Positions 1,327-19,484 of a stretch of DNA of 64,000 nucleotides are shown here, piece by piece. The notes under the pieces were generated by a model. That model did no database searches, was not told the DNA's origin, and was given only the letters and a program-made list of their open reading frames with translations. This DNA comes from Hoeflea sp. IMCC20628. Lineage in GTDB: Bacteria > Pseudomonadota > Alphaproteobacteria > Rhizobiales > Rhizobiaceae. The stretch covers positions 1 through 64,000 of the forward strand of contig NZ_CP011481.1 in NCBI RefSeq assembly GCF_001011155.1. The letters are read 5' to 3'. Position 1 is the first letter of the stretch; each line of letters opens with the position of its first letter. The translations under genes and the position numbers were made by a program.

Positions 1327-2484
1327 TCAGTAGGCGGCGCGATAGATCGCCAGCGCATCGGCTTCGGTCACTTCACGCGGGTTGTTTATCAGGAGGCGGG
1401 TCTGGTTCATGGCGTCGGATGCCAGACGGGGCAGAAAATCCTCGGGGATGTTCATCGCACGGAGGCTCTGCTGCAGGCCGCACGCTGCCGAGAGTTCGGC
1501 TAACCGGTCACAAAACGCAGCCGCCCGCTCTTGGCCTTCGTATTTCTCCAGTTCCGGAAACGCATAGGGCGCAAGCTCGGCATAGGCCTGCGGCGCGGTT
1601 GCCGCGTTGAAGCGCAACACATGCGGCAACACCAAAGCATTGGAAAGCCCGTGGGGGATATGGAAATGGCCGCCCAAGGGATAAGCCAGCGCATGCACCG
1701 CGGCCACCGGCGAGTTGGCGAACGCCTGTCCAGCTAGCATTGAGCCGAGCAGCATGTCGGACCGTGCAGCGATATCGCTGCCCGCGTGGACGGCCTTGAG
1801 CACCGAGCGCCCCATTAGCGTCAGCGCCTGTGTTGCCAGCATGCGCGACAACGGGTTGTTGTTGGCGCTAGCCGAGGCATAGGCCTCGATGGCATGCACC
1901 ATGGCATCAATGCCGGTTGCGGCCGTGATATGGGGCGGCAGGCCAAGCGTTAGTTCCGGATCGAGCACGGCGACATCTGGCAAGATGACTGGCGAGACCA
2001 CACCCATCTTCTCATTGGTGCCGGTGGTGACGATGGAAATCGGCGTGACTTCCGATCCCGTACCCGCCGTTGTCGGCACCAGGATCAGTGGCAGCCGCGG
2101 TCCCTTGGCGTTGCCCACGCCATACATGGTCTTGAGTGTTTCCTGCCCCAGCACCAGAACCGACACCAGCTTGGCCACATCGAGCGACGATCCGCCACCC
2201 AAACCGATGATACCTTCAACCGAAGCAGCCTTTGCCTTCTCGACGGCTGCAAGGATGACATCCTCGGGCGGATCCGCCTGAACGTCAGAAAACATCTCGA
2301 CTGAGACACCCGCAGTCTCAAGCACCGACAGCGCCCGCTCAATGATGCCGGTGCGCATCATGCCCGGATCGGTGATCAGCATCACCCGCGTGCCGATCTG
2401 GGCACGGGCAAGCTCACCAAGCTTATTCAACTGACCGGCGCCAAACTGAATGCTCTTGGACGTGTTGAAGACAAAAGGTGTCAC
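1327..2484 (-). CDS. iron-containing alcohol dehydrogenase (AttL/BlcB-like)
   Basis: 385 residues, the usual length of group III iron-dependent alcohol dehydrogenases. The NAD-binding signature GGGSSLDVAK sits at 96-105. The four metal ligands of the family fall at Asp193, His197, His264 and His278 with the spacing known from FucO. It would oxidise or reduce a short alcohol or hydroxy acid in the cytoplasm. It is the last gene of the twelve-gene run, 31 bases after the symporter. In Agrobacterium an enzyme of this family (AttL/BlcB) oxidises gamma-hydroxybutyrate made by the lactonase AttM/BlcC. Because an AttM-type lactonase and an IclR regulator occur in the same run here, a similar role is my inference. 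The next enzyme of that pathway, succinic semialdehyde dehydrogenase, is not in the window. Confidence 0.88.
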   Translation of the reverse strand: MTPFVFNTSKSIQFGAGQLNKLGELARAQIGTRVMLITDPGMMRTGIIERALSVLETAGVSVEMFSDVQADPPEDVILAAVEKAKAASVEGIIGLGGGSSLDVAKLVSVLVLGQETLKTMYGVGNAKGPRLPLILVPTTAGTGSEVTPISIVTTGTNEKMGVVSPVILPDVAVLDPELTLGLPPHITAATGIDAMVHAIEAYASASANNNPLSRMLATQALTLMGRSVLKAVHAGSDIAARSDMLLGSMLAGQAFANSPVAAVHALAYPLGGHFHIPHGLSNALVLPHVLRFNAATAPQAYAELAPYAFPELEKYEGQERAAAFCDRLAELSAACGLQQSLRAMNIPEDFLPRLASDAMNQTRLLINNPREVTEADALAIYRAAY

Positions 2485-2515: not shown

Positions 2516-4465
2516 TCAGCCGCCGAAGCTGAACACGACAAGCACGATCAGCACGAAGGCCAGCGCGCCGGTCACGACAAGATTGCGAAGCCGCTCGCGT
2601 TCCACCGGCGACCGGTCGTGATTGAGTTTTCTAGGAGGCTCATAGGCCGGGATCTTCAGTACATAGGGACTGGCCATCTCCATCTTGTAGGACAAGAACC
2701 AGACAAGCCCGACACCCAGTGCCCAGAACAGCAAGGCCCATGCCCAGATCGATGGCATACCCACCAGCCATACCCCCCCGGCGTCATTGATTGTGCCAAA
2801 GGCAAAATTTCCGAACACCAGGCCGGGCCCTATCGCAAGGAACACCCACGCGAGCACCGCAGACCAGGCTGCTGCACTGAGCGCCCGCGCCCGCGATCCG
2901 ACACGCAAGGTGCTGTGCAGAAAACGCCGCGCTTCCTGGGCTTCGGCACCAAAAGCGTTTCGATTGGTGATCGCAGATATGATCAGCACCGCCACCAAAT
3001 TGGCCGCCATCCCCCAGGCTGCGGAATGAATGGTCCAGGGCCAGCGGCCCCATGGCAGTTCAAGCCCCAGGAACGACAGGACCTGATAGCCCAGAGGTTC
3101 TGTGAGCAGCACGCCAGCAATCCCGAAACCAACTCCGGTGGCTGCCGCCGATCTGGTGATCCAGCGCAGCCAGGTGATGCCCAAGAGCGGCGTCCAAAGC
3201 TGGAACGACAGCGGCAGGGCCAAGGCACCAAGTGCCGAGAGGGTGACCGGTGTGAGCGACTGCATCAGCGCGGAGGTGAGGGCCAGCAAGGCGATGACGA
3301 TACGGGTGAGATTGACCGTGGCAACACGCGACAGCCCACTGTGGAAATAGGGTTTGTAGACATGGCGCACCAAGCTTTCGCCAGCGGTCAGTAGGGCAAG
3401 ACCTGCCAGAAGCTGCACGCCGGCAATAGCACCCAGAAACAGCCAGGCGAGGAACCATGGAGATTCTGTTTGAAGCTGCGACAGCATGCTACCGAGCGAC
3501 AACTGTGGACTCACCAGACCGGCAGCGCCGATGATGGCGATGCCGAACGCGATGATCCCGCCCACGACGCCTGCCATGACCCATGTCTGGCCAGCGGCAA
3601 TCCCATTGGCGTTGCGGGTCGACAGGATAATCTTGGCCGCAAGCGGGCTTGCCTGAAATCCCATGAAAGCAAGCGCAATGCTGAAGCTGGTCAACGCTGT
3701 TTCAGCATGACCCGAAACCGCGCCGCGCCCAAGGCCTGCTGAAAACTCGATTACACCCGAAACCAGAAAAAGCCGTGCACCGTCAGGTGTTTGCGCGAGA
3801 ACTTGAAGGTTCGCATTCAGCGCGGCAAATCCGCCCGAGGCAATCAGTGCCACCCCGGCCAGGCCAACCACGCCAGTCAAGGCCAGCACTGTCTGAATAA
3901 CGCCGAAATAGCCAATGGCGCGCATGCCTCCGATGCCGACATAGGCAAACAGAACCGCGCCCAGAAAAAGTCCCGCGACCAATGGCGAGATCATGCCGCT
4001 ACTGAGCGACGCAATAATTTCCGATAGCGCCCTGAGTTGCAATCCAGCAAAGCCGACCGCGAACAGCACCGCCACCAGCGTTGATACGACAACCAAGAAA
4101 TCGCTATCGAAATAGCTGCGAAAAAGTTCAGGCTGCGAGGATAACCGCAATCGCTGGCCGACAAACCACATCCGCTTGAAAAACAGCACGCCGGGTAGCG
4201 CCAGCACAATGCCTGCCTGAAGGATGCCTGGCTGGGTGAAGCCCCGCGCCGACACCTCCGCCGTGCCGCCGAGCAGGAACCAGCCCGACAGACTGGCGCC
4301 GGCGATGGTGACAGCTGAGATCCACGGCGAAAGCGTATGCCCGGCGGAAAAATAGGTTTCGTGATTGCGGTTCTCCCGCGCCGCAACGCGCGTCCAGAAC
4401 AGCATAACCGCGACGTAAAACAGCGCGTACAGCGGCAGCCAAACCAGATTTCCGGCGCTTGTCAT
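2516..4465 (-). CDS. sodium:solute symporter (SSF) family transporter
   Basis: 649 residues with about 13 or more hydrophobic helices; the N-terminal helices and the segment TYFSAGHTLSPW (about 36-47) match the SSF fold of PutP-like sodium-coupled transporters, in which a bundle of ten helices carries substrate and sodium inward. The protein is about 150 residues longer than PutP, the extra part being additional C-terminal helices and a charged tail. The start ATG overlaps the stop of the preceding small membrane-protein gene (ATGA, 4462-4465), so the two are translationally coupled and may work as one unit. Substrate unknown; the operon suggests an organic acid, or the hydroxy acid or sugar released by the co-encoded hydrolases. 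Confidence 0.82.
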   Translation of the reverse strand: MTSAGNLVWLPLYALFYVAVMLFWTRVAARENRNHETYFSAGHTLSPWISAVTIAGASLSGWFLLGGTAEVSARGFTQPGILQAGIVLALPGVLFFKRMWFVGQRLRLSSQPELFRSYFDSDFLVVVSTLVAVLFAVGFAGLQLRALSEIIASLSSGMISPLVAGLFLGAVLFAYVGIGGMRAIGYFGVIQTVLALTGVVGLAGVALIASGGFAALNANLQVLAQTPDGARLFLVSGVIEFSAGLGRGAVSGHAETALTSFSIALAFMGFQASPLAAKIILSTRNANGIAAGQTWVMAGVVGGIIAFGIAIIGAAGLVSPQLSLGSMLSQLQTESPWFLAWLFLGAIAGVQLLAGLALLTAGESLVRHVYKPYFHSGLSRVATVNLTRIVIALLALTSALMQSLTPVTLSALGALALPLSFQLWTPLLGITWLRWITRSAAATGVGFGIAGVLLTEPLGYQVLSFLGLELPWGRWPWTIHSAAWGMAANLVAVLIISAITNRNAFGAEAQEARRFLHSTLRVGSRARALSAAAWSAVLAWVFLAIGPGLVFGNFAFGTINDAGGVWLVGMPSIWAWALLFWALGVGLVWFLSYKMEMASPYVLKIPAYEPPRKLNHDRSPVERERLRNLVVTGALAFVLIVLVVFSFGG

Positions 4466-4887
4466 CGTCCACTGTCCTCGCCGACTGCAGTCTTGACGTG
4501 AAAGCGCGAGAACGCACCGCGAAGCCCGTGGCGCGTCGACAGATAGGCAATGAAGCCGACCGCCAACACGGCAAACAGCGTCAGGCCGGAATAGAAATCC
4601 ACCATCGACATTTCACCGGAGAGCACACCTGCGATGAAGGCGAAGGTCAGCACCCCGAACAAGCCAATACCGAGCGCGGTCTCGCCACGACTAAAGCCTT
4701 GGTGGAACAGGCCGTTGACGACGATATGCGCAACAAAAGCAGCCACGATGAGTGCCGTTCCCAAGAGAGATATGAGGTAGGAATCCCGCGTGAAGCCCTC
4801 AAGCAGAAACGCAAGCCCTCCAAATCCGAGCACTGCCCAGTTCGAAAAGACAAGAAGATCGCGTTCTGTGTTCGGCGTGGCCGACAT
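4462..4887 (-). CDS. small four-helix membrane protein, symporter partner
   Basis: 141 residues with about four hydrophobic segments (roughly 17-31, 38-60, 69-88 and 96-114) and a basic C-terminal tail ending in EDSGR. I do not recognise a named family. Its stop overlaps the start of the SSF symporter, which resembles the arrangement of small accessory subunits with SSF permeases (for example a DUF485-type partner of acetate permease), but I see no DUF485 signature and do not claim that family. It probably sits in the inner membrane with the symporter. The gap to the flotillin gene upstream is 58 bases, consistent with one transcript. Confidence 0.65.
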   Translation of the reverse strand: MSATPNTERDLLVFSNWAVLGFGGLAFLLEGFTRDSYLISLLGTALIVAAFVAHIVVNGLFHQGFSRGETALGIGLFGVLTFAFIAGVLSGEMSMVDFYSGLTLFAVLAVGFIAYLSTRHGLRGAFSRFHVKTAVGEDSGR

Positions 4888-4945: not shown

Positions 4946-6634
4946 TTACTTGTCCGCCGATTTCTTGGCGGACTTGGACTTCGAGCCTTCGTTAGGCGCG
5001 TTTGGCTCTGAATAGACCACCTTCGACAAGTCCTGCAGCGTGTGTGAGCGATGAATAGAATCTCCGCTCATACCGATTTCGCCCAACAACTGGTCGACGA
5101 AGGGCGCCTGCGAGCGGTAGCGCAAAGCCGAGGAAACCACTTGCTCTGCAAGGTTGCCGTCCCGCGGTCCGTTGCCATCGGTTCCGGAGCCATCGCTGCT
5201 GCCGTGGCTCATATTGCCAGATAATCCGGGAAGACCATCGACATGGAGGATCTTGATACCCTCGATCTTTTCCATCGGCTTCACGCTTTCGCGGATGATG
5301 GCAGGCAGGTTCTCCACCAGCGCCTTGTGCAAGCCGCTCTTGCGGTTGGCATCCGAGCGCATGTTCTCTGCAGCGTTGAGCTTTTCCTTGCCTGCAGCTT
5401 CAACACGATACCGCTCTTCGAGCGCTGACACCGTGATGCGGTCGGCATCGGCGCGATCTTTGGAGGCCACCTTGTCGGCCTCGGCCAGGATCTTGATCCG
5501 GGTAGCCTCAGATTCCGCTGCCTTGGAAGATTCGATGAGTTCCACGATCTTCTGCCGGTTGGCAATTTCGGTATCGCGAATGGTCTGAACGCGCTCTTGC
5601 GCCTCGACCATCTTGGCCCGTGCGGATTCGGCGTCAGCTTGGGCTTCCGAACGTTCCTTGGATTTTACAGAGACCGCTATTTCGCGCGCCTGCTCGTCAA
5701 GTTCCAGCGTTTCCTTGCGCTTGATCTCAAGCCTTTCTATCTCGCGTTCCATGTCGATGCGAGTGCGCTCGACAGATTCGCGTTCCTTGAGCTTGATCGC
5801 CTCGATCTCGCGCTCGCGGCCTGCTGTTTCGGTGGCAATTTCAGACCGGCGCTGAGCCCGCTGGATTGCCACTTCGGCGTCGTGATCGAGACGGGCATAT
5901 TCCGTATCACGCTGAATCTCGAGAGAGCGCTTCTCGGCCTCAAGGTTCTTGGTGCGAATGGCGATCTGGGTGTCTTTTTCGATGTCGTTGCGCTTTTTCT
6001 TGCGGCTTTCAATCTGCTCGGTCAGAATCGTCAGGCCCTCGGCGTCAAAGGTGTTCGACGGGTCGAGAAGCTTGATGTCGGTCTGGTCGAGCGAAGTCAG
6101 TGAGACCGATTCCAGCTCGAGTCCATCGAGCGCCAGACTTTCGGCGACCTCTTTCTTGACCTCTTTGACGAATTCCAGGCGGTTCTCGTGGATATGCTCA
6201 AGCGTCACCTTGGCAGCGGCGCCGCCCATGGCATCGACAAAGCGGCCTTGGATCAAATCCTTGAGCTGATCGGCTTTCATGGTGCGGTTGCCCAGCGAGC
6301 GCGCGGCGGTAGCGACTGCCTCAATGTTCGGGGCGACGCGGACGTAGAATTCCACTGTGAGCTCGACGCGCATCCGATCTTTGGTGATCAGCGATTTTTC
6401 ACGCGCCCGGGTCACTTCCAGCCGCAGCGTGTTCATGTTGACTTCAGTCAGGTCATGCAGGATCGGCAGCACCAGTGCACCGCCGCCCATGACAACCTTT
6501 TCTCCGCCAAACCCTGTTCTGACAAACGAGACATCCTTGGTCGACCGGCGGTACAGCCAATGCAGCAGATAGGCGCATACGGCGATAACAATTGCGGCAA
6601 GAATGATGATTGCAATTATGTCTGCACCCTTCAT
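4946..6634 (-). CDS. flotillin-like SPFH/Band 7 protein (YqiK type)
   Basis: 562 residues. One N-terminal membrane helix (about 5-28) is followed by an SPFH/Band 7 domain (about 30-200). A long charged coiled coil rich in Glu, Lys, Arg and Ala fills about 215-430, and the C-terminal tail is flexible, Gly/Ser-rich and Lys-rich, ending in SAKKSADK. This is the architecture of bacterial flotillins and YqiK, which oligomerise into membrane scaffolds (functional membrane microdomains). It is encoded between a rhodopsin-fold protein and a symporter, so it may organise these membrane proteins; that is inference. It lies 57 bases downstream of the rhodopsin-like gene. Confidence 0.88.
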   Translation of the reverse strand: MKGADIIAIIILAAIVIAVCAYLLHWLYRRSTKDVSFVRTGFGGEKVVMGGGALVLPILHDLTEVNMNTLRLEVTRAREKSLITKDRMRVELTVEFYVRVAPNIEAVATAARSLGNRTMKADQLKDLIQGRFVDAMGGAAAKVTLEHIHENRLEFVKEVKKEVAESLALDGLELESVSLTSLDQTDIKLLDPSNTFDAEGLTILTEQIESRKKKRNDIEKDTQIAIRTKNLEAEKRSLEIQRDTEYARLDHDAEVAIQRAQRRSEIATETAGREREIEAIKLKERESVERTRIDMEREIERLEIKRKETLELDEQAREIAVSVKSKERSEAQADAESARAKMVEAQERVQTIRDTEIANRQKIVELIESSKAAESEATRIKILAEADKVASKDRADADRITVSALEERYRVEAAGKEKLNAAENMRSDANRKSGLHKALVENLPAIIRESVKPMEKIEGIKILHVDGLPGLSGNMSHGSSDGSGTDGNGPRDGNLAEQVVSSALRYRSQAPFVDQLLGEIGMSGDSIHRSHTLQDLSKVVYSEPNAPNEGSKSKSAKKSADK

Positions 6635-6691: not shown

Positions 6692-7393
6692 TCAGGCATT
6701 GTCGGGCCTTTCGCTGTCCAGGACGGCGGTGGCCAAAATGGCCAGGCCGAAAGCCATGCGGTTGAGAAAGTCGGCAAGATTGTAGGCAACGCTCAGCGCG
6801 CCATCGTCGACGTAACCGGCGAAAGAGGTAATGAAATTCCCCAGTGGATAGATTGCCCAGCCCACCGTCACGATCAGCCTGAGCCAGAAGTATCCACGTT
6901 GCACCGGCTCGCGAAGTGATCCGCGGATGGTTTCGTCCATCTGGCCGAAGAACAATTCACCCAGAATATAGAGCCAGAAGACAAGTCCGATCAGGAAGGC
7001 GAGCGTCGCGTGCATGAAGCCAGCTTCGCCGAGATAGCGCACGAACACCATCAACACGGAAACAATGACAAGCCGCCAGAACAGCCCAATACTGAGGCGT
7101 CCTGCCTGGCTCGCCATAAAATAGAGCGCCAGGATCTGCAACGGCATGGAGATGGTCCAGCCGACATAATGATAGACGATCGGCACATTGCCGACCGTCG
7201 CCCACGCGGTACGGGCTTCATACAAGGCGCCGACACCTACCAGCGCAGCGATGGCGCAGAACGAGACGGCAATCTTCCAGCCGCGGCTGACCCAAGCCGT
7301 TCCGAGCAGCAACAGCACGGCTGTCGCCACCAGGCCGTAAAGCGCCACCGAGTAGCTTGCCGCCGTCAGGTCGGTTGTCTCGAACACTGCCAT
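6692..7393 (-). CDS. microbial rhodopsin homologue lacking the retinal lysine
   Basis: 233 residues with seven hydrophobic helices of type I (microbial) rhodopsin length and order. Helix C reads YHYVGWTISMPLQ (74-86), helix F GWAIYPLGNF (178-187) and helix G NLADFLNRMAFGL (205-217). Aligned by eye to proteorhodopsin and bacteriorhodopsin, the pocket residues Trp79, Pro84, Trp179, Tyr182, Pro183 and the counter-ion Asp208 are kept. The Schiff-base Lys is Arg212 (codon CGC, bases 6758-6760), the proton acceptor Asp is Gly78, the helix-C Arg is His75 and the donor position is Ala89. It therefore cannot bind retinal covalently in the usual way or pump protons by the known route. CGC is at least two base changes from a Lys codon, so a single read error does not explain it. 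Lysine-less rhodopsin homologues have been noted elsewhere; their function is not settled. It lies between ABC permease and flotillin genes, 50 and 57 bases away. Confidence 0.88.
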   Translation of the reverse strand: MAVFETTDLTAASYSVALYGLVATAVLLLLGTAWVSRGWKIAVSFCAIAALVGVGALYEARTAWATVGNVPIVYHYVGWTISMPLQILALYFMASQAGRLSIGLFWRLVIVSVLMVFVRYLGEAGFMHATLAFLIGLVFWLYILGELFFGQMDETIRGSLREPVQRGYFWLRLIVTVGWAIYPLGNFITSFAGYVDDGALSVAYNLADFLNRMAFGLAILATAVLDSERPDNA

Positions 7394-7443: not shown

Positions 7444-8811
7444 TCATATTTGCGTGCGGATGTGCGGCGAGCGGGCGTAAAGTGCCACCATCGGCAGGAT
7501 CAGAAGCCCGAAGATGAATTGCTGCCATTCGAAATCGAGGCCCATGCCGATGAGGAACGAGGACAGCACCTGCAGCACCAGCACGCCGATGACAGTGAAG
7601 CCGTAACCGCCCTGCCCGCCAAGCAGCGATGTTCCGCCGACCACGACCGCAGCCAGTGTGAGGAACAAATACTGATCGCCCACTCCGATGAACCCGCCAC
7701 CGCTCCAGCCCAGCAGCAGGCTGCCGGTCAGCGCTGCGAAAAAGCCGGATAATGCGTACATCGTCACCCAGTATTTCAGCTCCGAGATCATCACCCGCTT
7801 TGCGGATGTCCGGTTGACACCGAGCGCATAGAGATAACGGCCATAGACCGAGTAGCGCATGCCAACGGTCAGGATAATGATGATCCCAACCCAGATGACG
7901 ATCACCGGTGGTAACGGAATACCGAATGTTTCGCCGTTCATCGCAGCCAGATTTGACAACCAGCCCGGAACCGTTCCGAAGACGTTGCCGCCATAGGCGG
8001 TGCCGATGGAAGTCAAGATCTGAACGCCGCCGGAAATGGCAAAGCCTGTCCCCAATGTAACAATCAAGGCCTGGCCCTGTAGCCGGTAACTCAACAGTCC
8101 GTTGATGACACCGAGCAGAACGCCGATGCCGAGCACGATTATGGTCGCAAGCCACGAGGGGACCCCGAGGCTGATAAGATAGAGCAGGCCGACATTGGCT
8201 GCGCCGATGATAAAGGGGATCGACAGATCGAGCCCACCCAGAAGCGCCACCAGCGTCTGCCCCACAGAGGCGATGCCCAGGAACGCAGCAAAGAGCAGCA
8301 TCGACTTGATGTTCATGGTCGAAGCAAATCCCTCGATATTCATCGCACCGATGGAGAACAGGCCCGAGAGCACCATGATGCCTATGAACGCCGAACGGTT
8401 TTCCTGGAACTGGCGGCCGAGCGTGCGGGTGATCACGATGATGCTGAGCAGGATCAGCAGGGAAATCACGTTCCAGATATTGAAGAAGTTCTCGATCGTC
8501 AGCGACAGAATGGTGAAAAGCAGCAGGATTGCCACAAGACCGATCAGCGCTGGCCGGAACTGCAGCCAAACCCGGCGGATCTCGCTGGGGCCTTCCTCGG
8601 TCTCAGGCTGCTCGCTGGTGAACTGCCCTAGCACATAGCGCCAGCCCCAGACAAAGGCTGCCAGAGTGGCGATTGCCGAGAGAATGATCATCTGCACCGA
8701 TGTGCCTTGCCGAAACCCGAAGATTACGCCGATGACTGTCAGAATGATCCCGACGACCAGGCCAATGATCTTGGCAGGCAGGCTGAGCGGTTGATTGGAA
8801 GCTGACATCAT
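7444..8811 (-). CDS. ribose-type (CUT2) ABC transporter permease
   Basis: 455 residues, clearly longer than the usual 320-340 of RbsC-like permeases. The family signatures are present: LGGLDLSIPFIIGAANV in the middle and VVGGTSLLGGQGGYGF toward the C-terminus, the conserved loop near the last helices. The extra length is mostly N-terminal: two hydrophobic helices (about 13-35 and 40-60) and a charged stretch before the standard core. It forms part of the inner-membrane channel of an importer with the neighbouring permease, ATPase and binding protein. Its ATG overlaps the stop of the permease gene upstream (8808-8811). It ends 50 bases before the rhodopsin-like gene, which therefore very likely shares the transcript. 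Confidence 0.88.
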   Translation of the reverse strand: MMSASNQPLSLPAKIIGLVVGIILTVIGVIFGFRQGTSVQMIILSAIATLAAFVWGWRYVLGQFTSEQPETEEGPSEIRRVWLQFRPALIGLVAILLLFTILSLTIENFFNIWNVISLLILLSIIVITRTLGRQFQENRSAFIGIMVLSGLFSIGAMNIEGFASTMNIKSMLLFAAFLGIASVGQTLVALLGGLDLSIPFIIGAANVGLLYLISLGVPSWLATIIVLGIGVLLGVINGLLSYRLQGQALIVTLGTGFAISGGVQILTSIGTAYGGNVFGTVPGWLSNLAAMNGETFGIPLPPVIVIWVGIIIILTVGMRYSVYGRYLYALGVNRTSAKRVMISELKYWVTMYALSGFFAALTGSLLLGWSGGGFIGVGDQYLFLTLAAVVVGGTSLLGGQGGYGFTVIGVLVLQVLSSFLIGMGLDFEWQQFIFGLLILPMVALYARSPHIRTQI

Positions 8812-12130: not shown

Positions 12131-13306
12131 CTACTTGGCGGTGTATTTTTTCGGGTCTGCAGGCTTCAGGAAGAAATCATCCAGATAGTCGGATGAACCA
12201 CCCCAACGATCGGCACCGACAGCAAGCCAGTCGGGTGAATCAACGCTGCAATCTTCATTCATCACCTTGGTCAGGTCTTCATGGGTCATCTTGATCGGAT
12301 CAACCAGAACCGATTGGATCTTCGGACCCTGGCCCTGAAGCGTACGCATCATGATGTTCCAGATCAGCTGCATTTCATCAGCTGGCGGCCAGACCTGGTA
12401 GGAAGCGGTGATGTAGTCGGGGTTATTGCGCCAGTAGCACAGCGCTCCCAATTCACCACCGATGGCCACTGGCACATCGCCACGACCCGACTGCTGCACA
12501 GCGCGCAGAACGCCCATTTCAGCTGCCGACTGGACCACGATGCCATCGAGCTTGCCCGGGTGGGTGGCGAGCCATTTCTGGACTTCCCCCTGTGCAACCT
12601 GGTCGGTCCACATGCCTGCAACCGAACCAACGACCTTGACGCCGGGTGCGGAAGCAAGACCTGCCTTGACGCCACGGTCCTGACTGTCAGAACCCGATGT
12701 TCCGGGAATGCCTTCGACAACCAGCACATTGCCTTCGCCGCCGATCTGCTCAGCCATGTTCTTGCCGATCTCGAAGCCGGCAACCTGGTAGTTGACCGAC
12801 GAGTTGATCGCATATGGCGAAGTCAGGTAGCCCGTCAGCGAGAATACCGGCACCCCTTTGTCAGCCGCATATTGGACGGTCTGGTTCAGAGCAGTCGGGT
12901 TCGAGCAACAGACGATGATGGCGTCCACGCCCTGGTCGACCAGCTGGCGCATCTGCTGGATCTGGGTCGAGTCATTCAGGTTGGACTGGGTGATGATAAC
13001 CTCATCAAGCAGGCCGAGCTCTTTCCACTCGGGAATGATGACGTTCTGAAGCTCGTTCATTGCACCGGCGCGCCAGGTATTGCCGGCATAGGAGCTGGCG
13101 TAACCGATCTTCCATGGTGGCGGGTTCTTCGCCACAAAATCGCGCCAGGCGCTCGGGCCAATCGGCTGAGCCGGATCAAGCATGTCCGGATTGTAAAGCC
13201 GGGCTGCAACGTCCGGGTTGATTTCATCGATACCTTCGGCATGCACATTGATGGCACCGAGCGCCAAAAATCCTGCCGCAAGGGCAAATTTGCTAAGCTT
13301 TTTCAT
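12131..13306 (-). CDS. ribose-type ABC transporter substrate-binding protein
   Basis: 391 residues from ATG 13306, chosen because AGGAGA lies just upstream; an in-frame ATG 24 bases earlier lacks a ribosome site. A Sec signal peptide ends at about residue 23 (AINVHA). The mature part is a type I periplasmic binding protein: WKIGYASSYAGNTWR starts the first lobe and VDQGVDAIIVCCSNPTALN is the typical first hinge strand. It would bind a sugar or related polyol in the periplasm and hand it to the permeases. The 154-base gap upstream is the largest inside the run and contains a small palindrome (13350-13362), so an extra promoter or a processing site is possible there. Confidence 0.88.
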   Translation of the reverse strand: MKKLSKFALAAGFLALGAINVHAEGIDEINPDVAARLYNPDMLDPAQPIGPSAWRDFVAKNPPPWKIGYASSYAGNTWRAGAMNELQNVIIPEWKELGLLDEVIITQSNLNDSTQIQQMRQLVDQGVDAIIVCCSNPTALNQTVQYAADKGVPVFSLTGYLTSPYAINSSVNYQVAGFEIGKNMAEQIGGEGNVLVVEGIPGTSGSDSQDRGVKAGLASAPGVKVVGSVAGMWTDQVAQGEVQKWLATHPGKLDGIVVQSAAEMGVLRAVQQSGRGDVPVAIGGELGALCYWRNNPDYITASYQVWPPADEMQLIWNIMMRTLQGQGPKIQSVLVDPIKMTHEDLTKVMNEDCSVDSPDWLAVGADRWGGSSDYLDDFFLKPADPKKYTAK

Positions 13307-13460
13307 GAACTGCGTCTCCTCTATCCTCATTTACAGGCATTCACCTCCTCAGGAATATCCTGCGGTGGATTTCTTCCGAACAAGCTATTGATTTTGCTTT
13401 GCAAAACCCCTCCCGCCCGTTTTAACCGACCTCCCAGACGCAATTTGCCGCGTTGGCGGA

Positions 13461-14396
13461 TCAGTCGTAAAAATCATAGGGAGCCTTCTGAAAGGTTTCC
13501 CAATTGTCCGGATCATGACCGGTCACCACCATCGCGCCGGTGTCCTCGGCAATGCGCCGAAGCTTGGCGACCGATTTTGCCGCATCACTCGAAGAAACGA
13601 CCAGGCCGGGCAATGCCTTGTTGTTCCAGTGATCCAGCGTATAGGCCGCATCAATGGTCAGGAGCACAGGTCCGGTGTTGGGCAAAGTAATCAGGAATGA
13701 CATGTGTCCGGTCGAGTGACCGGGTGTGAAAATCATGCGAATGACGCCGTCGCCGTAAAGGTCGAAATTGTCGGTGTATTCGCCACCGAGAAATTTCCAG
13801 TCCAGGCCCGGGCGATCAAAATCAGCCCGGATATAGGCGCCGGCCGCGAACCATTGCGGCTTGAACGCATAGTCATATTCACTCCGCTGGACGATATATT
13901 GCGCCCTGGGAAACCGGCCGATTGCGCCAGTGTGATCAAGATGGAGATGCGACTGCAGCACGTAACGGACATTGCTCGGCTCGACCCCGACGAGGCGGCA
14001 CTGGTCAACGCAATTGTCGGCGATGTTCATAACCGGGTTATAGGCATCGACGACCGCGCCCCAATGGCCACGCTTGTCGATGGCGGCTTCAACGGCATTG
14101 CCGCCATCAATCACTACGTTGCCCATGGGATGCTTGATAAGGAACCACGGCACAGGGATTTCGAAATCACTCTCGCCTTGGTTCATCTTGATGTATTTGA
14201 CTTTGGTTTGCAGGGTTCCGGTCTGGAACATGTGCAACTCGATACCAGAGGATTTGCGCGTGCGGCGGCCGGGATCAGGTGCCCGGTGGCTGAAGTCAGG
14301 CCGCGGCGCAAGACTGCTCGCGCTCGATTTCGACGATGCCGCGGCATTCTCGACTTCCACCCGCTGACCTTTATCATCGAATTCTACGATCTTCAT
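13461..14396 (-). CDS. attM: metallo-beta-lactamase-fold lactonase, AttM/BlcC/AiiB type
   Basis: 311 residues. The zinc motif HLHLDH (150-155) lies within QSHLHLDHTGAIGRF, and later ligands appear in FTPGHSTGHMSF, TIDAAYTLDHW and VVTGHDPD. The spacing and the words KMNQG, DGGNA and RGHWG match, from memory, the Agrobacterium lactonase AttM/BlcC and AiiB, which open gamma-butyrolactone and N-acyl-homoserine lactones. AttM would start near Met56 here; the extra 55 residues are Ser/Arg-rich and begin MKIVEFDDKGQRV. They look truly translated because AAGGG precedes ATG 14396. It stands between the alpha/beta hydrolase gene (56 bases upstream) and the importer. Likely cytoplasmic; the true lactone is unknown. 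Confidence 0.9.
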   Translation of the reverse strand: MKIVEFDDKGQRVEVENAAASSKSSASSLAPRPDFSHRAPDPGRRTRKSSGIELHMFQTGTLQTKVKYIKMNQGESDFEIPVPWFLIKHPMGNVVIDGGNAVEAAIDKRGHWGAVVDAYNPVMNIADNCVDQCRLVGVEPSNVRYVLQSHLHLDHTGAIGRFPRAQYIVQRSEYDYAFKPQWFAAGAYIRADFDRPGLDWKFLGGEYTDNFDLYGDGVIRMIFTPGHSTGHMSFLITLPNTGPVLLTIDAAYTLDHWNNKALPGLVVSSSDAAKSVAKLRRIAEDTGAMVVTGHDPDNWETFQKAPYDFYD

Positions 14397-14452: not shown

Positions 14453-15301
14453 TCAGGACTTTGATTCAATGATGCGAAGCGCTTCCTTGAGGTAGACGGC
14501 GAAAAGCGGATAGTTTTCCGACATCGGGAAATGTCCGATGTCTTCCATCTCGATATAGATGCCGCCGGGAATCTGCCGGGCGGTATTCTCCGTGGCGTCA
14601 GGCGGCGTGAGATAATCGTAGGTCCCGGTCATCATGATCACTGGGCAGCGGCGGGTATCGATGTTTCCCAACTGGCCGCGCATGTCGTGGTCAATGGAAT
14701 AGAAATGCAGATCGCCTTTGAACACTTCGGCGCCTTGCGTGTAATAGTGCCAGGTCTGCCAGCGATCCTGTTCCGGGCTTTGCGGCGCCATCAGATCCCA
14801 CACGCCTGATGCGCAAACCTGCGCAGCGTTGGCATGCGGATGCCGCCACAAATCCAGAAAGAAGCCTGGCGCATGTTCGGCGGCCTCGACCGGGATCACG
14901 GCGCGATACTTGTCGGGATGATGTAGCGCCAGTTGCAGCGCCACATTGCCTCCGAAGGAAGACCCCATGAAAATCGGGCGATCCAGTTCGAGAGCCTCGC
15001 AAAAGGCATTGATGAAATTCATGAAGTGTTCGGCGGTCAGGAGGTACTCCTCCTTCCACCATTCACGGTTAGTCGGCGGGTCGGACTTGCCATGGCGAGC
15101 CAGATCATAGGCAATGACATCGTAGTTCGCGGTTACATCGGGGTCTTCAAGCAATCCGCGCCATTGGTGATTGTGACAGCCTGCGGTGTGTTGGCAGACC
15201 AGCGGAACGCCGCTACCATTGCGCAGATAGAACACCTTGTACTCGTAGCCATCGACCTCGATGGTGACATACCGACCGACTACCGGTGAGTGCTTGGCCA
15301 T
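14453..15301 (-). CDS. alpha/beta hydrolase
   Basis: 282 residues from ATG 15301, preferred over ATG 15313 because GGAG lies 6 bases ahead of it. The nucleophile elbow GSSFGGN places the catalytic Ser near residue 115. The oxyanion-loop region CQHTAGCHNHQW, the acid in GTYDYLTPPD and the His in EDIGHFPM complete a standard triad. Such enzymes hydrolyse esters, lactones or C-C bonds in the cytoplasm. With a lactonase next to it, a second hydrolytic step on an acylated or lactonised substrate is plausible; the substrate cannot be read from sequence. It lies 56 bases upstream of the lactonase gene. Confidence 0.85.
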   Translation of the reverse strand: MAKHSPVVGRYVTIEVDGYEYKVFYLRNGSGVPLVCQHTAGCHNHQWRGLLEDPDVTANYDVIAYDLARHGKSDPPTNREWWKEEYLLTAEHFMNFINAFCEALELDRPIFMGSSFGGNVALQLALHHPDKYRAVIPVEAAEHAPGFFLDLWRHPHANAAQVCASGVWDLMAPQSPEQDRWQTWHYYTQGAEVFKGDLHFYSIDHDMRGQLGNIDTRRCPVIMMTGTYDYLTPPDATENTARQIPGGIYIEMEDIGHFPMSENYPLFAVYLKEALRIIESKS

Positions 15302-15357
15302 ACTGGTCTCCATGAATTTTCAAAATGTGGGTGCCGAAAACGGGATCAGCGCCAGAC

Positions 15358-15747
15358 TCATACCGGTACGCCAACTTTGCGCAGCAATTCGAACTGGACC
15401 GTGAAGTTGCGGAGGTTCTGCATTAGGGCCAGGGTGTTACCCTCGATCTTCAGATCGCGCCGAAAGCTTGCCGACCAAATGCCGTGAAACATCGGCGCTG
15501 GAATTGGCCTTGCAAATTCCCGCCATGTCTGGGGGCTGGCGCGCAGTGCAAAGTCATAGGCGTCCATCGGCGCTGGATCGACATTGATGCGATAGACCTT
15601 GCCATCGATCATTTCGACGATGACCTTGGCTGTCCCCATGTCCCAGAGATAAGTACATGTGAAATATTTGGCCATTGCGCCGATTGTCTGATCGCGATCC
15701 GACGCTTCGCTGAACCTGGCGGCCCAGTCTCTAACGCTCATCACCAT
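15358..15747 (-). CDS. small cytoplasmic protein, possibly SCP2-like
   Basis: 129 residues from ATG 15747 (GGGAGAG upstream). No signal peptide or membrane helix. The pattern of a predicted beta-rich first half, then PIPAPMFHGIW and a closing helix with ALMQNLRNF, resembles SCP2 sterol-transfer domains, which bind lipids or fatty acyl groups in a hydrophobic tunnel, but the match is weak and from memory. It is the first gene of the long minus-strand run and faces the IclR regulator across about 150 bases. A substrate-binding role for a hydrophobic lactone or ester is speculative. Confidence 0.55.
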   Translation of the reverse strand: MVMSVRDWAARFSEASDRDQTIGAMAKYFTCTYLWDMGTAKVIVEMIDGKVYRINVDPAPMDAYDFALRASPQTWREFARPIPAPMFHGIWSASFRRDLKIEGNTLALMQNLRNFTVQFELLRKVGVPV

Positions 15748-15846
15748 ACATTTCTCTCCCTGCCGCTCCACCGCGACCGCCGCGAACAAAAATTGTCATC
15801 CGCGGATCAATACTTCAGAAATTGGTCGACCTTCCAACTGGTCGAT

Positions 15847-15898: not shown

Positions 15899-16732
15899 AT
15901 GATTGTCAAGAAAGATATGAATCCGAAGCTGGAAATTTTCATGAAGCAGGAAGAGACAAAGTCCGCATTGGTACCAGCGCTTGAACGCGGAACACGAATC
16001 CTTGATTTGATTGCACGTTCAAAGAATTATCCGAATCTGTCTGAAATTGCTCGCGAGATCGGCATTGCAAAAAGCAGCGCCCATACGTTGTGCAGCACGC
16101 TGGTTCAGCTTGAGCTGCTGATTCGCCGTCCCGACCAGACCTTCCAGCTCGGACCCCATGTCATGCGCTGGTCGAATGCCTTTACCCAGCAATCCGACGT
16201 GGCCACGGAATTTGCTGCACTTTGGGACCAGGAAAGTGAAATGCCCGGTGCCACCATCACCCTATCTGTGCTCGAAGGAGCCGAAGTGGTTTACATTGCA
16301 GCGCGCAACTCCATCGTCAGCCACTCGATGATTGAGTTTCGGGCCGGAATGCGCCTTCCTGCACCGTTCACCGCAACCGGCAAAGCTTTCCTAAGCAGAA
16401 TGAGCGACTTTGAAGTCCGACGGCTGCTTTCGGATGGGATGCCTGAACCACGCACCCCGCACAGCGTCCAGGCAATCGATGCCCTTCTGAGTGAGCTGTC
16501 CACAATCAGGGATGTCGGCTATTCTTGCGACAATCAACAAGTCGCTGAAGGCATTATTTGTTATGGCGCGTCTGTGCTTGATTCCCGCAACCGTCCAATA
16601 GCAGGAATCGCAGTTAGCCTACCATCTGAACAGCTATCAGATGATCAGACAAGTCAGATTATCGCAAATGTGCAACGCATGGCTGCCCGTCTCTCCGCCA
16701 GAATGGGTGCGGATTTGAAACTGACAGACTAA
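15899..16732 (+). CDS. IclR-family transcriptional regulator
   Basis: 277 residues. An N-terminal winged helix-turn-helix (about 26-85, with YPNLSEIAREIGIAKSSAHT) is followed by an IclR effector-binding domain (about 100-270, with PFTATGKAFLS and GYSCDNQQVAEGIICYGASV). The family senses small carboxylates or lactone products and represses or activates an adjacent catabolic operon. It is divergent from the twelve-gene run, as BlcR/AttJ is adjacent to blcABC in Agrobacterium. The effector could be a hydroxy acid or semialdehyde; this is inferred from neighbourhood only. The start may instead be the internal Met7 or Met15. Confidence 0.88.
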   Translation: MIVKKDMNPKLEIFMKQEETKSALVPALERGTRILDLIARSKNYPNLSEIAREIGIAKSSAHTLCSTLVQLELLIRRPDQTFQLGPHVMRWSNAFTQQSDVATEFAALWDQESEMPGATITLSVLEGAEVVYIAARNSIVSHSMIEFRAGMRLPAPFTATGKAFLSRMSDFEVRRLLSDGMPEPRTPHSVQAIDALLSELSTIRDVGYSCDNQQVAEGIICYGASVLDSRNRPIAGIAVSLPSEQLSDDQTSQIIANVQRMAARLSARMGADLKLTD

Positions 16733-18384: not shown

Positions 18385-19484
18385 GGCTCTGTTGCAGGGA
18401 TCGTTCTCAGCCTGATACTGAGGTTACTCCTTCCCATTCAGGATGCTGAGCATGCCGCACAAATTCAATGCTAACCGCCGAGGTAAAATTCCGAAGCAAA
18501 AGTATCGTGTGTCCAACTGGGCGAGTTACAACGAAAGCCTTCGGCGCCGCGGGGATTTGACGGTCTGGGTCAGCGAAGAGGCGCTTGGTTTGTGGCGGGC
18601 ACCGCGCCGGGCGACGCGGGGTGGTCAGCGGACATATTCAGACCTGGCGATCAAGATCTGCCTGACCCTGAGCGCTGTCTTCAAGCAACCGTTGCGCCAG
18701 ACACAAGGCTTCATGGGTAGTATTGCGACCTTGCTTGGTGTCGAGATCGCGGTGCCAGATTTCTCCACGCTCTCGCGCCGGGGCAAGGGACTGACTTTGC
18801 CTGCGACGCGTAAAACCGACCGATCCGATCCGGTCCATCTGGTGGTGGATAGTACCGGCCTGAAGGTCTTCGGCGAGGGCGAATGGCTTGAGCAAAAGCA
18901 TAATACAAAGCGCAAACGGCGCTCTTGGCGCAAGCTCCACCTCGGTCTTGATCTTGTCAGCGGTGAGATTGTATGCGCGGACCTAACCAAGGATGACGTC
19001 GGCGATCCGACGGCGCTGCCAGATCTGTTGGATCAAGTCGACGGCCCGGTTGATATGTTCCTCGCAGATGGAGCTTACGACGGAGAACCAACATCTGATT
19101 TGCTAGCCGCTCGGTTCGGATCGGCGATCGATGTCACGATCCCACCTCCCAAAACCGCAATACTGAGCCCCAATGCGGCCAAAGATCCGACGGCACGTGA
19201 CTGCCATATCGCCGAGATCGCAGCCCGCGGGCGGATGGCCTGGCAGAAAGCCACTGGCTACAATCAACGCAGCCGAGGTGAAACTCTCATGGGCCGCTGG
19301 AAAGCCGTTATCGGACCCAAGCTAAAGGCGCGCAACTTCGAAAATCAGAAAACAGAAGCCAAGATTGGCGTCCGGGTTCTCAACCGGATGACCGGACTTG
19401 GCCGCCCAAGTTTTGAACGCACCGCCTGAATTTCGTCTCGGGAAGGGCGCGTTCCCAGTTGACGTTGATCTATGCAACACGGCC
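18385..19484 (+). mobile_element. IS5-family insertion sequence
   Basis: A transposase gene is bounded by imperfect terminal repeats: GGCTCTGTTGCA (18385-18396) on the left and TGCAACACGGCC (19473-19484) on the right, 10 of 12 matching when inverted. The flanks (CTTC left, ACGC right) show no target duplication, and the genes on the two sides (bkdA1 and a DUF6629-like protein) are unrelated. This suggests recombination between two copies with loss of the DNA between them rather than a simple insertion. Confidence 0.75.
18452..19429 (+). CDS. IS5-family transposase
   Basis: 325 residues from ATG 18452, with AGGA about 8 bases upstream; the ATG at 18443 is too close to that site. The DDE pattern of IS5 transposases is visible: VVDSTGLKVFGEGEW (first Asp), FLADGAYDGEP (second Asp) and the final E in the YNQRSRGETLMGRWK region. 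The frame is complete without internal stops, so the enzyme may still be active. It cuts and joins the ends of its own element. Confidence 0.9.
   Translation: MPHKFNANRRGKIPKQKYRVSNWASYNESLRRRGDLTVWVSEEALGLWRAPRRATRGGQRTYSDLAIKICLTLSAVFKQPLRQTQGFMGSIATLLGVEIAVPDFSTLSRRGKGLTLPATRKTDRSDPVHLVVDSTGLKVFGEGEWLEQKHNTKRKRRSWRKLHLGLDLVSGEIVCADLTKDDVGDPTALPDLLDQVDGPVDMFLADGAYDGEPTSDLLAARFGSAIDVTIPPPKTAILSPNAAKDPTARDCHIAEIAARGRMAWQKATGYNQRSRGETLMGRWKAVIGPKLKARNFENQKTEAKIGVRVLNRMTGLGRPSFERTA

Follow-up and report, generated by a model that had tools for sequence, protein, structure and literature searches.

The cluster and its genomes

The window, a stretch of 64,000 nucleotides from Hoeflea sp. IMCC20628, contains a gene for a flotillin-associated rhodopsin (FArhodopsin) in a cluster of transport and catabolic genes (Table 1). 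A preliminary description, made from the sequence alone, had placed this gene between an ABC permease (upstream) and a flotillin (downstream), a position borne out by family matches. A ribosome-site-like stretch, GGGAGAG, lies six bases 5' of its ATG; promoter- and terminator-like sites from a pattern scan were about as frequent as in shuffles.

Table 1. Features of the rhodopsin cluster in the window.
Feature	Position	Strand	Evidence or remark
Iron-containing alcohol dehydrogenase (Fe-ADH)	1327..2484	-	over no curated NCBIfam cut-off
Sodium:solute symporter (SSF) family protein, 649 aa	2516..4465	-	
141-aa protein, four hydrophobic segments	4462..4887	-	without family match
Flotillin (Band_7 + Flot)	4946..6634	-	directly downstream of rhodopsin; adjoins it in 21/21 loci
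Lysine-less FArhodopsin (P0001), 233 aa	6692..7393	-	frame, Pfam, alignment, AlphaFold2, fold match
CUT2-type permease PERM1, 455 aa	7444..8811	-	extra N-terminal membrane module, ~130 aa (about 8413-8811)
CUT2-type permease PERM2, 477 aa	8808..10241	-	extra C-terminal region, ~150 aa
ABC ATPase, 609 aa	10238..12067	-	two ABC_tran stretches
Periplasmic substrate-binding protein (SBP)	12131..13330	-	Peripla_BP_4
AttM/BlcC-family lactonase	13461..14396	-	NCBIfam NF045700, 432.7 bits (equivalog cut-off 390); HLHLDH stretch present
Alpha/beta hydrolase	14453..15313	-	family match
143-aa protein (SCP2-like)	15358..15789	-	weak SCP-2 sterol-transfer match (E 0.075, below cut-off)
IclR-family regulator, divergent	15899..16732	+	position conserved

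Is the order with the CUT2-type importer, SPFH and SSF genes conserved, a check that the preliminary description had proposed? We found 21 loci in named genome contigs, belonging to Hoeflea, Oricola, Nitratireductor, Zhengella, Pararhizobium, Cohaesibacter, Roseovarius, Lichenifustis and other relatives. In 17 of the 21, all 13 genes are present in the order IclR, SCP2-like protein, hydrolase, AttM, SBP, ATPase, PERM2, PERM1, rhodopsin, flotillin, 141-aa protein, SSF and Fe-ADH. Contig ends truncate loci L027 and L030, in Lichenifustis (L032) the first cluster genes are rearranged and the Fe-ADH match is absent, and the most distant locus (L033) runs from PERM1 to SSF only.

Rhodopsin matches occur in 11 of 101 relatives (window genome counted), and 29 of 397 genomes of the order match P0001, plain proteorhodopsins counted. 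In a sample of the class, 34 of 385 genomes match the profile. Among the 28 of the 33 other genomes whose surroundings were examined (G119, G236, G251, G318 and G341 being left out), five have the FArhodopsin cluster: in three, a FArhodopsin that has the retinal lysine (Lys-type) is the only rhodopsin, and the other two, which are small, combine a Lys-type FArhodopsin with a separate pump. Copies with 72-75% identity, under the annotation 'bacteriorhodopsin', are present in four plasmid records (two of Martelella, one of Pararhizobium gei and one with the label Dysgonomonadaceae), and a Shinella record carries a 38% identical copy. Plasmids CP070278.1 and NZ_CP066788.1, one labelled Dysgonomonadaceae and one Martelella, give the same match and are almost equal in length (246192 vs 246197), so that the former label is probably wrong. 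Petroleum-contaminated soil and a plant are among the sources given in the records of relatives.

The window sits on a 123-kb contig, and the genome also has a contig of 4.84 Mb. Metal-resistance-like cargo on the 123-kb contig (21395-24292, 42271-44700, 50752-53777 and 60387-62780) consists of two P-type ATPases with metal-binding domains, two multicopper oxidases, an outer-membrane efflux protein and a sensor kinase. Transposase genes are found near the cluster (18443-19429) and further along the contig (35600-36520).

Loss of the Schiff-base lysine and pump residues

The preliminary description had proposed a rhodopsin fold of seven helices. Residues 12-223 of the protein score 75.8 bits against Pfam Bac_rhodopsin (cut-off 24.6), and the AlphaFold2 model, based on an alignment of 20 relatives, has seven long helices (pLDDT 87.9, pTM 0.86). 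The best solved matches are the PsFAR entries 9r23 and 9r21 (TM 0.92 on the query, 35% identity), and third in fold comes 8cnk, a retinal-free proteoopsin with decanoate. By the family match the protein belongs to the type-1 rhodopsin sequence family, and by the model it is predicted to have the fold; with PsFAR as best PDB match by sequence and fold, it stands closer to known FArhodopsins than to pumps.

Every pocket and pump-site residue named beforehand is correct in the alignment: His75, Gly78, Trp79, Pro84, Ala89, Trp179, Tyr182, Pro183, Asp208 and Arg212. The residues of a light-driven pump (proteorhodopsin) are thus replaced, Lys by Arg212, the Asp acceptor by Gly78 and the Glu donor by Ala89. 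Could a lysine elsewhere in helix G face the pocket instead? This was ruled out, as the only lysine of the protein, K40, lies outside helix G. Nor is Arg212 (codon CGC) an assembly error, another objection considered from the outset, because Arg is present in 25 of 27 aligned rows from independent assemblies (Lys in one, Leu in one). Against four relatives, dN/dS is 0.029, 0.031, 0.076 and 0.112, inside the range of the cluster neighbours, ratios that are rough because dS is 1.1-1.5. By these sequence comparisons, the gene is under purifying selection.

To place the protein among its homologs we used an alignment and tree of 63 rows: 32 lysine-less, seven Lys-type FArhodopsin and 24 pump rows. 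Ten of 73 rows were left out as fragments, same-contig duplicates, rows with N, or very distant or extra pumps (L027, L101, L102, L130, L209, L210, L213, L214, L216 and L217); the set is also without L014, L021, L023 and L001-L012 except L008, many of which are the same genomes as longer loci. Homologs with Arg or another residue at the lysine site, which the preliminary description had suggested looking for, form one group with support 100/100, comprising 27 rows with Arg at position 212 (Arg-type) and five with Leu (Leu-type). None of the 32 retains the Lys, the Asp acceptor or the Glu donor. Gly78 is found in 32/32 lysine-less rows, while Asp78 is found in 24/24 pumps and 7/7 Lys-type FArhodopsins. 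In the former retinal pocket, Arg119 replaces Gly: position 119 is Arg in 32/32 lysine-less rows and Gly in 24/24 pumps, with Ala in four, Gly in two and Glu in one of the Lys-type FArhodopsins. Gly145 is common to all 39 FArhodopsin rows, where the pumps have Tyr (23) or Trp (1). Residue 208 is Asp in 30 lysine-less rows and Glu in two. His75 is not general: 25 of the 32 have it, and the five Leu-type rows have Arg there instead. An earlier tree, which included a distant, long-branched row and was without L027, L102 and L130, joins Lys-type and lysine-less FArhodopsins with support 100/96; the tree without the distant row, midpoint-rooted, has its root between the lysine-less rows and all others. 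Because the two trees differ, this grouping depends on the root.

Does the bacterium have another rhodopsin, or a supply of retinal? The window genome has one Bac_rhodopsin and hence no co-resident proteorhodopsin. Each of 27 genomes tested (26 lysine-less and one Lys-type, G069) has exactly one, a count in which G097 is the only representative of the five Leu-type rows, as it is for the Blh test, and in which a second rhodopsin or Blh could escape detection, since several of the genomes are incomplete assemblies. The absence of blh from the window, noted in the preliminary description, extends to the whole genome, which has no match to the Blh family (PF15461). No Blh match was found in 25 of the 26 lysine-less genomes; the match in the remaining one, Lichenifustis, is partial and close to a contig start. 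The same search returned Blh in 16 genomes outside the lysine-less set: 0/4 genomes with only a Lys-type FArhodopsin, 2/2 with FArhodopsin and pump, and 14/21 with pumps only. RPE65-family enzymes, with which some relatives could cleave carotenoids, occur in 2/26, 3/4 and 0/2 of the lysine-less, Lys-type-only and FArhodopsin-plus-pump genomes, respectively. Three Lys-type loci, L105-L107 (G457, G379 and G285), come from genomes of 4.0-4.5 Mb that are Blh-negative and RPE65-family positive, with the FArhodopsin as only rhodopsin.

The crt genes, likewise reported missing from the window, were sought in the whole genome: all 19 matches to the broad crtI family model fall below the cut-off (best 147.6 vs 238.1 bits). 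A single SQS_PSY match lies in an open frame shortly downstream of an ORF judged by inspection to be SecDF; from this neighbourhood, it is presumably a respiratory-complex assembly homolog rather than a phytoene synthase. Hidden carotenoid synthesis was accordingly set aside as an explanation.

Extended permeases and a probable lactone pathway

PERM1 is the immediate upstream gene of the rhodopsin in Arg-, Leu- and Lys-type clusters alike, and before the standard permease core it carries an extension of about 130 residues, which includes four hydrophobic segments. Is this module tied to the rhodopsin? Among the matches listed, 14 of the 397 genomes of the order have a permease whose alignment begins no later than query residue 17, and the rhodopsin adjoins in 14/14, which may amount to one evolutionary association, as module and rhodopsin may be a single gain inherited together. 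The five next-closest permeases (58-60% identity) start at residues 129-134, in genomes without a rhodopsin match; no weaker match starts before 124 among those listed. Four of these five rhodopsin-less clusters read hydrolase, SBP, ATPase, PERM2, PERM1 and succinate-semialdehyde dehydrogenase (SSADH), and have none of rhodopsin, flotillin, 141-aa protein and SSF; a contig end truncates the fifth, whose SSADH match is only 34%. The other 15 of the 29 rhodopsin-match genomes have no extended permease among the matches listed. One is G069, with a Lys-type rhodopsin, a flotillin and a weak permease match (E 4e-6), which does not run contrary to the coupling because its contig ends beside the rhodopsin. 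Surroundings seen for four of the other 14 show a rhodopsin without the cluster.

Open frames point the same way. With each frame counted from its first possible start codon, a choice that can make frames too long, and with 11 of about 45 rhodopsin loci measured, the longest PERM1 frames are 455-524 aa in 11/11 loci with rhodopsin and 333-339 aa in 4/5 without it; the fifth has no close upstream stop, so that its start is undefined. PERM2 frames are 321-324 aa in 5/5 clusters without rhodopsin and 447-797 aa in nine loci with it, the start not being found in one more and another not being covered. In the Lys-type loci L105, L114, L115 and L206, PERM2 frames reach 735-797 aa, more than twice 321-324 aa. 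ATPase lengths overlap between clusters with and without rhodopsin and were not used as a discriminator. Neither the PERM1 module nor the PERM2 C-terminal region has a Pfam match near cut-off, and against the PDB the PERM1 module gave only two weak matches (E 0.04-0.06, undecaprenyl-diphosphatase). No rhodopsin-PERM1 contact was predicted, because the AlphaFold2 model of PERM1 (pLDDT 48.5) was too poor to use. From these sequence comparisons, the co-occurrence is consistent with rhodopsin and permease being physically coupled, as a lead rather than a proof.

What might the importer carry? Agrobacterium blcABC (attKLM) degrades gamma-butyrolactone via gamma-hydroxybutyrate and succinic semialdehyde, according to PMC5924552. 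The cluster lactonase scores above the equivalog cut-off for the AttM family, and in Martelella an SSADH follows Fe-ADH. A full-length SSADH is found in 15 of the 20 loci L013-L032, and L138 and L139, the latter from the nearest species, have one too; L023 and L030 stop at its site or short of it, L032 has a partial match (49%), and L029 and L031 have none. The window cluster has no SSADH at positions 1-1326, where similarity to L139 stops right after Fe-ADH; the sole match on its contig (37%) lies elsewhere. The alpha/beta hydrolase is 76-95% identical in Arg- and Lys-type clusters and 43-45% in Leu-type clusters. Since AttM, Fe-ADH and, in relatives, SSADH resemble blcABC, the cluster is likely to combine a CUT2-type importer with a blcABC-like pathway, with a small lactone or hydroxy acid as probable substrate class.

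Proposed function and known rhodopsin systems

What does a rhodopsin without its lysine do beside an importer? We favor, at a probability of roughly one half, the view that this FArhodopsin has given up light and acts as a seven-helix component, or as the organiser, of an uptake complex built on flotillin, with a small lactone or hydroxy acid as cargo. The importer (binding protein, ATPase and two permeases with extra membrane modules) would bring in the substrate, which the hydrolase, the AttM lactonase, Fe-ADH and, in relatives, SSADH would convert to succinate. The rhodopsin, which may form a pentamer as the five chains in the PDB entry of its relative PsFAR suggest, would pack against the extra N-terminal module of PERM1, and rhodopsin and flotillin together may hold or gate the importer within a membrane domain. 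The substrate, the physical contact and the gating or scaffolding are the parts that we infer as the best explanation for the cluster. In short, a protein resembling a light pump, devoid of the residues for light and kept with a flotillin, gives the impression of a rhodopsin that has been recruited into a transport machine. The new role envisaged in the preliminary description thus stands as a likely place in a membrane complex, by the conserved partnership with permease and flotillin; retinal bound non-covalently, another of its suggestions, is unlikely. Because Lys-type FArhodopsins have much of the same cluster, the role may not require loss of the lysine.

A stricter form, which we hold only tentatively, makes the rhodopsin an obligate light-independent subunit of the ABC importer, for which the permease would have gained its ~130-residue membrane module as a dock, with the flotillin clamping the assembly, and with Arg119 and the loss of the Asp acceptor and the Lys making the change from photochemistry to a mechanical or ligand-gating role permanent. 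A somewhat weaker candidate is a ligand sensor, whose former retinal pocket would bind a molecule other than retinal, for example an anionic amphiphile at Arg119/Arg212, and report to or gate the importer. Retinal-free proteoopsin, the third fold match, binds decanoate, whose carboxylate pairs with the retinal lysine (PMC11322631), and W179, Y182, P183, N211 and Arg119 are kept in 32/32 lysine-less rows. However, the five Leu212 rows count against an Arg212-carboxylate pair as a general mechanism, and Arg119 may simply fill the pocket. A receptor, also among the original suggestions, is possible, but no transducer-like gene was found among the cluster genes scanned.

Might the rhodopsin be a partner of the flotillin only, shaping a membrane domain but with no particular link to the importer? 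In PMC10308929, a flotillin gene next to the rhodopsin is the most widespread trait, and it holds throughout our loci; the permease extension, however, goes with the rhodopsin, and PERM1 keeps its upstream place in all three cluster types, so that we regard this alternative as unlikely. Retinal still bound non-covalently, or light acting through scavenged retinal, is more doubtful by far. Fold and several pocket residues are kept, 7/21 pump-only genomes are themselves Blh-negative, and RPE65-family enzymes in two lysine-less genomes and a partial Blh match in one leave a conceivable source. Against this stand 25/26 genomes without Blh, 24/26 without an RPE65-family match, and a pocket that has lost Lys, acceptor and donor and carries Arg119 in place of the Gly of pumps. 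Finally, a decaying gene or assembly error, suggested by the lost catalytic residues, can be dismissed in view of the intact frame, the recurrence of Arg212 and a dN/dS of 0.029 at dS 1.10 against the nearest species.

How does the uptake-complex reading compare with known systems? The window protein is a lysine-less FArhodopsin, a class already known: the implied novelty of the protein class does not hold, since Haro-Moreno 2023 (PMC10308929) describes FArhodopsins with Q, T, L or R at the Lys site, the freshwater members mostly being without Lys. Shared with that account are the adjacent flotillin, a sodium symporter, an inner-membrane translocator, an alpha/beta hydrolase and Fe-ADH, and the published marine cluster has a sterol-carrier protein, of which the weak SCP-2 match is the window counterpart. 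In contrast, biotin-dependent carboxylases, N,N-dimethylformamidase, PxpA and aldolases of the published clusters are not among the window neighbors scanned, and the window member is tied to an AttM lactonase and extended permeases. With regard to the reduced retinal pocket by which FArhodopsins are also judged, the window protein shows Arg119 where pumps have Gly. The same text presents the family as aquatic, with a proteorhodopsin always co-resident in marine genomes, and proposes that the FArhodopsin complements or helps that pump; here, it is the only rhodopsin found, and relatives also come from soil and a plant. Since its authors could not test freshwater members, we do not take a co-resident pump as defining FArhodopsins. 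A single rhodopsin found per genome, with no Blh match in 25 of the 26, argues against the pump-helper idea for the lysine-less branch, as far as incomplete assemblies allow.

PsFAR, solved by cryo-EM, has the Lys that the window protein lacks, and the two PsFAR residues changed in 9r23, H84 and E120, correspond to Met83 and Arg119 of the window protein. The betaproteobacterial Rh-noK (Yamauchi 2019, as described in PMC10308929) is likewise a type-1 rhodopsin without Lys, but is xanthorhodopsin-related and in tandem with a pump, whereas the window protein is FArhodopsin-related with no pump found. In haloarchaeal opsin-related proteins (Becker 2016; PMC4915679), the Lys site holds Arg in group A and Leu or a different hydrophobic residue in group B; these form an archaeal sensory clade, with group A beside chemotaxis transducers, none of which were seen in the window. 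Agrobacterium blcABC/attKLM (PMC5924552) shares the AttM-family lactonase and the alcohol and semialdehyde dehydrogenases; unlike it, the window cluster adds a dedicated importer, a rhodopsin and a flotillin, and lacks SSADH in this strain.

Full-text literature, mostly without subscription papers and bioRxiv, yielded no description of FArhodopsins from Hyphomicrobiales, of the lactonase pathway or of the permease module. As far as searches show, four points go beyond print: in these cultivable bacteria the FArhodopsin is the sole rhodopsin found; the lysine-less rows have Gly78 and Arg119 in common, with Arg or Leu in place of the lysine; the cluster has the context of a lactone pathway; and a permease module is linked to the rhodopsin. 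That module is a concrete candidate partner, the substrate class is equally at hand for testing, and named strains (Hoeflea alexandrii, Roseovarius litoreus, Zhengella mangrovi, Martelella and Pararhizobium gei) bring the question within reach of ordinary genetics.
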